Source: Prosopocoilus inquinatus
Taxonomy: Eukaryota; Arthropoda; Insecta; Coleoptera; Lucanidae
Length of the DNA: 64,000 bases
Direction: 5' to 3'
NCBI GenBank assembly: GCA_036172665.1
Contig: CM069870.1
Coordinates: 56,420,212-56,484,211 of the forward strand
Part shown: positions 61,713 to 64,000 of the stretch, in pieces
How positions within the stretch are numbered: the stretch's first letter is position 1
Layout of the letters: each line of letters opens with the position of its first letter
The notes under the pieces: model-generated
What the model was told of the DNA's origin: nothing
Databases searched by the model: none
Seen by the model: only the letters and a program-made list of their open reading frames with translations
Position numbers and translations under genes: made by a program

Positions 61713-64000
61713 CTGCCCCCTTCTTAAAAACGTTTCGTCTCGAAATGTTCCTGGTGATAGTCTTGAAGGAGGATGTCGGAATCTACAAGCCGGCCCATTC
61801 TTGCAATTTCCCGTCTGGAAGAAGTAGCAGTCTACGGTTTTGCTGTTGCTGACTGTTGCCTGTGGGTGATGGCTGCAGACTAGGACTTCAATTCCCGTTC
61901 TGTGAAAGATGGGTTCCAGCATGCTTCGTATTACTCTCCAGTCTAGTCCGTCCAATCCGCAGCCCAATTTGGGGATGGCCAACTTCATCTGATGGTTCTC
62001 TATTAGCTGTCTCCTCAGGCTATATAGGGCTCTCCACATACTTTGATAGTCAGGTTTACCGCTTGATGTCTTCTTAGTGACTAAATAATGCACGTGGCGC
62101 CTCCGATCTGCCGTCGAATCAATGATCTGCAAGCTCTTGCCTACCATGGGATGCTGTCTTCGTAGCTCCTCGATTTGGCCAAATTTCTTCCTAAACACCT
62201 GAGCGATTCCTTTGGACATTTTCAGGTCTTCTGCTACGCAGTGAGCCAGACTGTACTCCAGTGGCACTTTAAAGAGATCTTGTTGCTTCTCCGTGGTCAC
62301 TCCAAACCGTGCCTTGCTTCCTTCGGCGTGATGAGACATGAAGGTTTCGAAGTTCACTTCGGAAACTTGCGCCCTTTGTACTGTCCCTTCATCTGCTTCT
62401 CCATGGTAAGGGGCCATCCGGTTGAAGTGGATTACTTTGGGTTTGCCATGGGGGACCTTCTTGATGCGGTAAACGACGTCGTTGATCCGTTTCATCACTT
62501 TATAAGGACCTTCCCAAGAGGTCTGTAATTTTGGGGAGAGGCCTCGACGTCTTTGGGGGTTATAAAGCCAGACCAGTGCTCCAGGTTGGTATCCCCCGTG
62601 TTGAGCGTTGATGTCATAGTGCTCCTTCATCCGATCGCTGGCCGTCCGTATATTGTGACGCACTTGGTTGTGGATATCATCCATTTTCCTGCGTAATTTG
62701 CTCACGTAATCTTCGTCGGCAGAGACTTCGCCAGGCTTCACACCAAACTTCAGGTCGCAGGGCAGTCTCGGCTCTCGCCCGAATACCACTTTCGCGGGAG
62801 TCTCCCCTGTTGTCTCATGAACAGATGAGCGGTATGCCATTAGAAACAGGGGGATGTACGTGTCCCAGTCCCTCTGATGATTGGAAACGACCTTGGACAA
62901 ATGTCGGTTGATGGTTCTATTGAACCTTTCCACCATTCCGTCCGACTGTGGGTGGAGTGCAGTTGTTCTAGTTTTTCGTACGCCGAGCAGAGTACACACG
63001 TTCTTGAACAAGGCCGATTCAAAGTTCCTTCCTTGGTCTGAATGCAGTTCCATAGGTGCACCATACCGACTGATCCATTCCCTGACAAGGACTTCCGCAA
63101 TAGTGACCGCCTCTTGGTTAGGTAGGGCGTAAGCTTCAACCCACTTACTAAAGTAGTCCATTACCACGACGATGTACTTGTTTCCACCATTCGTTTCTGG
63201 AAACGGGCCGGCTACATCGATGGCAACTCTCTCAAAAGGACTTCCAACGTTGTATTGTCTCATGGGAGCCTTACCCCGCCTGTGGGGACCGTTACTGGCT
63301 GCGCAGACTGTACACTTTCTGCACCAATCCTTCACGTCTTCCTTGCAGTTCACCCAGTAAAATCTTTCGCGCACCTTCTCCATAGTCTTCTTAACTCCCA
63401 GATGCCCTCCGGAAGTTCCATCGTGAAGTTCCCTCAGAACTTCTGGCACCCTATTCTTGGGGATCAGTAACTGTGTCTTCTGTTCCATGCCTTCCTGATT
63501 CTCTATGCTTCGTCTCAGAAGACCACGATCCAACACTATGGAGTCCCACTGCGCCCAGTATGATTTTACGGACGGTGCACATGGTGCTACCTCTTCCCAG
63601 GTAGGCCTCGCGTCCCTGCTTTTCCATTCTAGCACTAATTTCAAATCCGGGTCGTTCTCCTGGTCTCTTCGCAGTTCTTCGCCTTGCCATTTGTCATCAA
63701 CAATGGCTGTCCTCGCAGTCGTGGCTACTTTCTCGTCCAAACGACTACAGTGCTTACAGTCTTCGGCACAGGGTCTTCTCGACAGAGCATCGGCATTTCG
63801 ATGGCTAGTTCCTGCCCGATGCTGAATTTCAAAATCGTACTCCTGAAGTCGTTCGATCCATCGTGCAACTTGCCCTTCTGGGTTCTTGAAACGGAGAAGC
63901 CATTTTAGAGCGCCGTGGTCGGTCCTCAGCAGGAAGCGTCTACCTTACAAGTACTTGTAGAAGTGTTCTATCGTTTTTACGACGGCTAGCAATTCCCTTC
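61680..64000 (-). CDS. Ty3/gypsy pol 3' part: RNase H - integrase - macro domain - CCCH zinc finger
   Basis: Minus-strand frame, entering from the window edge; a TAA at 63945-63947 interrupts RNase H (KYL, stop, GRRFLL), after which it is open to 61680. Residues below count from 63740. Upstream is RNase H (LRTDHGALKWL, SHRNADALSRR). The integrase zinc part has H106, H113, C140, C143; the catalytic core has D175, D235 and E271 (35 residues between the last two); a GPY-type motif (SWEGPYKVMKR) is at 409-417. Past the usual end, residues about 488-625 form a macro domain resembling TARG1/OARD1: SLAHCVAEDLKMSKGIA, YLVTKK with K557, PKLGCGLD with D597. A CCCH finger follows (C638, C646, C652, H656). 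The last residues are encoded by the polypurine tract and LTR. The macro domain is expected to bind or remove ADP-ribose. The stop suggests this copy is inactive. Confidence 0.92.

Follow-up and report, generated by a model that had tools for sequence, protein, structure and literature searches.

A TARG1-like macro domain and a CCCH zinc finger in the pol frame of a Ty3/Gypsy element of the beetle Prosopocoilus inquinatus

The locus and the pol reading frame

A window of 64,000 nucleotides from Prosopocoilus inquinatus (CM069870.1:56,420,212-56,484,211; assembly GCA_036172665.1) was examined, and its minus strand carries the 3′ part of the pol gene of a Ty3/Gypsy retrotransposon. In this element, the integrase is followed in the same open reading frame (ORF) by a macro domain with clear kinship to the TARG1/OARD1 (C6orf130) family and by a CCCH zinc finger. 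The order integrase, macro domain, and finger without an intervening stop had been proposed in an original prediction from the DNA, and it was borne out by a 686-amino acid ORF, by Pfam, and by similarity to TARG1 at an E-value of about 1e-29. The ORF at 61680-63740 contains no internal stops. The features, in window coordinates, are as follows:

61680..63740, minus strand: 3′ part of Gypsy pol in one open frame, comprising integrase, macro domain, CCCH finger, and tail, 686 amino acids (ORF list, Pfam)
63291..63464, minus strand: Integrase_H2C2 zinc-binding domain (Pfam, residues 93-150, E 7.5e-21)
62958..63239, minus strand: integrase core, rve (Pfam, residues 168-261, E 7.2e-13)
62409..62510, minus strand: Integrase_p58_C (Pfam, residues 411-444, E 8.5e-13)
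61866..62297, minus strand: TARG1-like macro domain, ORF residues 482-625 (human TARG1 structures 2eee, 4j5r, and others; purpose-built hidden Markov model, HMM)
62073..62075, minus strand: codon of Lys556, the equivalent of TARG1 Lys84, in YLVTKK (alignment to human TARG1)
61950..61952, minus strand: codon of Asp597, the equivalent of TARG1 Asp125, in GCGLD (alignment to human TARG1)
61773..61829, minus strand: CCCH zinc finger C-x7-C-x5-C-x3-H, residues 638-656 (PF00642)
61713..61725, minus strand: polypurine tract AAGAAGGGGGCAG, within translated ..LRRGQC (sequence)
61369..61712, minus strand: 3′ long terminal repeat (LTR), 344 bp, TG..CA, with the end of the ORF inside it (sequence)

The best solved-structure matches of the macro domain were five human TARG1 sequences (phmmer, E 9.9e-30 to 1.6e-29), and the DLF and GIA motifs are common to the two proteins. 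The Lys of YLVTKK and the Asp of GCGLD, which had been predicted to be kept, align with Lys84 and Asp125 of human TARG1, a dyad proposed for TARG1 catalysis in a passage of PMC9411070. The general Pfam Macro model (PF01661) gave the window domain 19.5 bits, below its 22-bit gathering cut-off, which is passed by some relatives (L114, L122, P0043, and P0082). The NCBIfam DarG model matched weakly, and at 44.1 bits, far below its equivalog cut-off of 250, membership among the DarG antitoxins was ruled out; moreover, the DarG macro domain lacks the dyad Asp, according to the part of PMC9411070 that treats it, while the element keeps this residue. The predicted finger is matched by PF00642 (E 3e-6, 27.5 bits, above the 20.5-bit cut-off) and is also similar to a finger of CPSF4 (E 4.2e-8, solved-structure search). 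Chance is excluded as the source of these domain calls because of the E-values and because 150 further copies were scored across the genome.

The assignment to a Gypsy pol was likewise upheld by the integrase domains, an LTR pair, and an upstream reverse transcriptase (RT). The 5′ LTR lies just outside the window (L138:3269-3612) and shares 344 of 344 bases with the 3′ LTR, so the window insertion is recent. The RT piece upstream of the window integrase (L138) is 77-83% identical to the RT of proteins P0044-P0048, in which Pfam recognises RT, RNase H, and integrase. With an LTR pair and an RT ahead of the integrase in pol, the element belongs to Ty3/Gypsy. Its flanks, ATATT and ATATG, agree at four of five bases and may represent an imperfect target-site duplication. 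The open frame of the window copy measures only 754 amino acids from stop to stop, and its pol is therefore interrupted upstream; longer open frames are present in other genomic copies. The frame had been thought to end ahead of the polypurine tract; instead, it crosses the tract, which is translated, and stops at a TGA (61680-61682) 33 nucleotides into the LTR.

Copies in the genome and the host TARG1 gene

A search of the genome (650 Mb, 173 contigs) with the extension yielded 150 scored copies, the best of 1485 first-look candidates; all were at least 95% identical, and 136 had no stop. A second search used the LTR and was blind to the extension, although it favours window-like LTRs and hence young copies; it returned 41 rows (40 scored of 2373 candidates). 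Element-side flanks of 0.75 kb were fetched for 20 of these rows. Seven of the flanks enter the element, and all seven contain the entire 221 codons of the extension without a stop and with both Lys and Asp. The other 13 showed no internal element sequence within 0.75 kb, which fits 5′ or solo LTRs, and no element end without the extension was seen among the 20 flanks sampled. Copies lacking the extension had been named beforehand as evidence that would count against the fusion, and every sampled flank that enters the element keeps it whole. Given the 150 scored copies, the LTR-first sample, and the presence of the fusion in other species (described below), a one-off fusion or an assembly artefact was ruled out. 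We read the element as a recently active, multi-copy Ty3/Gypsy retrotransposon.

The host TARG1 gene (L137, G000:C5:3748700-3757236) encodes two TARG1-type macro domains in tandem, split by introns. Twelve host rows, all from beetles, are closest to its second macro domain (58-65% identity). A macro region matching only a nearby host gene had also been named as contrary evidence; the host TARG1 match lies on contig C5 and the window on C2, which rules out capture from a nearby host gene.

Selection on the extension

Eighty-one pieces, including the window, were examined, of which 65 are window-type. The Lys, the Asp, and the four CCCH ligands are kept in all 65 window-type rows (window included). 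The ratio of nonsynonymous to synonymous differences per site (pN/pS) was compared over 374 diverged pairs (pS at least 0.05), which are not independent and whose copies had been picked out through protein similarity, either to the extension or to a host TARG1. Over these pairs the ratio was 0.22 for the macro domain (codon bootstrap 0.11-0.38; pN biased downward by the way the copies were found), 0.23 for integrase residues 240-448 (0.14-0.37), and 0.10 for the spacer and finger (0.03-0.33). The original prediction had proposed to examine selection across copies; between diverged copies, the macro domain is constrained about as strongly as the integrase. The seven LTR-first copies, which are free of the similarity bias on macro pN, differ from the window at 19 synonymous and 22 nonsynonymous codons (pN/pS 0.33 per site; binomial p 0.0005 assuming independence, which does not fully hold). 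Shared and singleton variants showed no informative contrast (Fisher p 0.67 for integrase, 1.0 for macro domain, and 0.64 for spacer and finger).

Relatives in other species

Three protein searches (the best 43 of 486, 54 of 663, and 23 of 134 candidates) gave 112 proteins together, and a recognisable integrase piece is present in 54 of them. Named sources of integrase-bearing relatives include the beetles Aromia moschata, Exocentrus adspersus, Harmonia axyridis, and Callosobruchus maculatus, and the fusion occurs in metagenome proteins too; it was sought in other copies and other arthropods and was found in both; in a relative from the sawfly Athalia rosae, the macro domain stands ahead of the integrase. 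Two insect-like Gypsy pol proteins, P0022 and P0054, bear the name of the powdery mildew Erysiphe pulchra in their records and are probably insect contamination.

The dyad was counted on 113 rows, namely the 112 retrieved proteins (host proteins included) and the window. The Lys is kept in 109 of the 110 rows with a residue at that position and the Asp in 110 of 113, and the dyad is conserved between proteins that are only about 55% identical. In the 17 cases measured, 25-41 residues separate the integrase from the macro domain. In group A (51 proteins, delimited by hand and partly on the finger itself), the CCCH pattern occurs in 48; of the three exceptions, two are short models that break off inside the finger, and in P0094 the first Cys is missing. 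In group B, the macro domain is found without a finger in all nine proteins, in some of which no integrase is visible. On this comparison, the CCCH finger is optional in the family. A peptide [LI]RR[GA]QC ends 35 of the 51 group-A proteins. It was rejected as a conserved protein motif in favour of a simpler reading, that it results from translation of the polypurine tract and the beginning of the LTR, which we infer from the window DNA.

No relatives were found among viral contigs, either for the extension alone or for the integrase, and none among prokaryote genome contigs. IMG/VR contigs often encode TARG1-like macro domains (L001-L080, the best 80 of 92 encoded relatives in an alignment scan). 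A record of Banna virus VP5 (P0088) contains a TARG1-type macro domain (PF01661); in one tree it clusters with a host sequence from a mayfly, in another with a mayfly and an Athalia element. In P0043, a 917-amino acid metagenome protein, such a domain lies mid-protein, and Pfam matches nothing else there at E 0.001.

Other positions in pol and the origin of the domain

The same genome holds further families in which the macro domain occupies other positions. In family N1 (L100 and L139), it follows the protease and precedes RT and RNase H; in N2 (L110 and L143), the order is protease, macro domain (detected by the purpose-built HMM, not by Pfam), RT, RNase H, and integrase. Family N3 (L114) has a zinc knuckle, protease, and macro domain, and N4 (L122 and L145) has a macro domain with an integrase further on; RT was not seen in either. 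Among metagenome proteins, the macro domain lies ahead of RT in P0075 and P0089, between RNase H and integrase in P0080 and P0082, and at the C-terminus in P0073. The macro domains of P0080 and P0089 gave no Pfam match at E 0.001 and were matched by the purpose-built HMM at E 4e-49 and 9e-52, respectively. The RT sequences of N1, N2, P0073, P0075, P0082, and P0089 are 40-53% identical to those of the C-terminal group, and that of P0080 is 63-66% identical; in a midpoint-rooted RT tree, they fall in separate groups. The RT of P0080 sits inside the RT clade of the C-terminal group; its macro domain is placed elsewhere in pol and falls outside the macro clade.

In the second of two macro trees (77 rows), 33 rows formed one clade with support of 100/98, and its nearest outside neighbours were N1 and N2 (96/81); the bootstrap was not settled in either macro tree. 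The clade consists of 29 C-terminal fusions together with P0033, P0100, P0102, and P0103, whose context is unclear and which were added after inspection of the tree. Beetle host TARG1 proteins sit in a host-sequence group apart from the element clade. A single clade of all 43 element rows, as one origin would give, was not rejected (p-AU 0.162); the domain may have been captured from hosts several times or may have moved between elements.

Other features of the window

A 16-bp inverted pair spans window positions 60891-61362, with TGCGTGGATTATCGCT at 60891 and the reverse complement at 61347. The pair ends 6 bp short of the LTR, and the Gypsy element may have inserted beside or within a small terminal-inverted-repeat transposon. 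At 13523-17453, a minus-strand RT ORF (PF00078) is overlapped on the plus strand by another ORF, in which the 3′ half of the first recurs, an arrangement that we read as an inverted duplication. The C-terminal part of this RT ORF resembles what we take to be a Penelope-type GIY-YIG region.

A possible role for the macro domain

The chances are about even, in our judgement, that the element carries in pol a working TARG1-type ADP-ribosylhydrolase which clears ADP-ribose attached by host PARPs for the benefit of the element. On this view, a single gain brought the domain into this Gypsy lineage, and it would be produced within pol and packaged into the particle with RT and integrase. There, it would remove the ADP-ribose set by host PARPs on cDNA ends or single strands, on element proteins, or at the integration site, allowing reverse transcription or integration to be completed, and the CCCH finger would probably contribute nucleic-acid binding. 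According to passages of the papers concerned, TARG1 removes thymidine-linked ADP-ribose from DNA, in which the K84A mutant fails (PMC8501950), and reverses Glu/Asp-linked ADP-ribose on protein; single-stranded telomeric DNA is ADP-ribosylated by PARP1, and this mark too is removed by TARG1 (both in PMC11102865). Reverse transcription yields single strands, nicks, and free ends, and element cDNA could therefore be a PARP1 substrate. Since TARG1 also acts on ADP-ribosylated DNA, nucleic acid is a candidate target no worse than what antiviral PARPs produce. Proteins, heterochromatin factors among them, are possible targets too.

Several observations weigh against such an active hydrolase or its origin. 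The Asp is missing from three rows, all of element type and not host TARG1 proteins (P0026, P0101, and P0033), and P0026 lacks the Lys also. The loop reads ASGLD in place of GCGLD in 30 of the 113 rows (the Aromia type), and human TARG1 Gly41 is replaced by Ser in the C-terminal-fusion rows compared; with these two changes, the binding of ADP-ribose or the rate of its removal may differ. In the 454 pairs with pS below 0.02, pN/pS rises to 0.65 for the macro domain, 1.44 for the CCCH part, and 0.44 for the integrase, as expected if fresh copies drift and as weak constraint would give likewise, and the low macro ratio of the diverged pairs carries the downward bias described above. The C-terminal clade did not emerge in the first macro tree, which had 85 rows and did not include N1-N4. 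Finally, no match to DarT was found in this genome, so that the thymidine mark has no known writer here.

The position of the domain raises another explanation, in which it binds ADP-ribose at PARP-marked chromatin or at breaks and steers integration, with hydrolysis secondary; such steering has been put forward for the chromodomains that end chromovirus integrases. The domain stands after the integrase C-terminal domain, as the chromodomains of chromoviruses do (a passage of PMC3605345), and its spacing from the integrase is similar across the cases measured. A pure reader, however, would not need both catalytic residues, yet the dyad is near-invariant, and in other lineages the domain follows either the protease, ahead of RT, or RNase H, ahead of the integrase; on balance, we consider a tethering function unlikely. 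The original prediction had suggested counter-defence, and such a role for the element macro domain is plausible. In its RNA-virus form, namely reversal of the protein mono-ADP-ribosylation set by antiviral host PARPs, it would accord with the opposition of viral macro domains to host ADP-ribosylation (described in part of PMC7232374), with five exon-level PARP-domain matches in this genome, and with the silencing of L1 in mammals through ADP-ribosylation of KAP1 by SIRT6 (a passage of PMC4695847). No passage of PMC7232374 on insects, retroelements, ZAP, or PARP13 was found, and the matches listed include no literature on PARP and retrotransposon silencing in Drosophila. The analogy drawn earlier with ZAP, which pairs CCCH fingers with ADP-ribose biology, is not supported, because group B has the macro domain without the finger, and this form of counter-defence appears doubtful.

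It is also conceivable that the domain is a captured host fragment, tolerated and without function, as host sequence capture by retroelements is documented (in part of PMC5890265) and as the macro domain exceeds the integrase in pN/pS among the closest copies. This idea is already disfavoured by the conservation of the dyad at such low identity, by the equal ratios of macro domain and integrase in diverged copies, and by the occurrence of TARG1-type domains at several positions in pol, and we regard it as very improbable. No more credit is given to a metabolic or RNA role, in which the enzyme would hydrolyse O-acyl-ADP-ribose or ADP-ribosylated RNA ends and the finger would bind element RNA at packaging. 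Such a role would suit the likeness of the finger to that of CPSF4; however, group B lacks the finger, and no data here link these substrates to retrotransposition.

Beyond the clearing of ADP-ribose by a pol-borne hydrolase in this one element, a wider proposal may be made, which we hold tentatively and at less than even weight: insect Ty3/Gypsy elements may have repeatedly put a TARG1-type hydrolase into pol (three positions, at least three RT lineages), with ADP-ribosylation acting as a general barrier to LTR retrotransposition which the elements have to erase.

Relation to known systems and significance

Gypsy elements and the TARG1 enzymes are already known, and so is the acquisition of host enzymes by retrotransposons. 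Compared to TARG1/OARD1 itself, which it resembles in sequence, in the Lys84 and Asp125 equivalents, and in the DLF and GIA motifs, the element domain differs in lying inside a Gypsy pol, in being intronless, in having Ser for Gly41, and in being followed by a CCCH finger. Chromoviruses similarly have an extra domain after the integrase C-terminus of Ty3/Gypsy (PMC3605345, in part), but theirs is a chromodomain, whereas the window element carries an enzyme-like ADP-ribose domain. Fish epsilon-like endogenous retroviruses are also LTR retroelements with a macro-domain ORF, as a review describes in one part (PMC4977317); they are vertebrate, the macro domain is in an additional ORF and its kind is not stated in that part, and the likeness is one of description only. 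The DNMT-bearing retrotransposons of dinoflagellates and charophytes are alike in the repeated uptake of a host enzyme into coding regions (PMC5890265, in part), although the enzyme is a methyltransferase rather than an ADP-ribosylhydrolase. Among the matches listed in the open PMC literature, which excludes subscription papers and preprints, no report of a Gypsy-TARG1 (Gypsy-macro) fusion was found.

An ADP-ribose eraser in the pol of an LTR retrotransposon would tie PARP biology to the control of transposons in animals. The ADP-ribosylation of DNA and the TARG1 activity that reverses it have become topics of study recently, and to our knowledge few natural settings have been described for them. 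A widespread family with the full TARG1 dyad under selection would provide a direct handle on the substrate and on cDNA ADP-ribose, and it offers many natural TARG1 variants and several pol contexts within one genome. If the wider proposal is true, these elements would reveal a side of the conflict of genomes with transposons that has gone unrecognised, with ADP-ribosylation perhaps acting on reverse-transcribed DNA itself.
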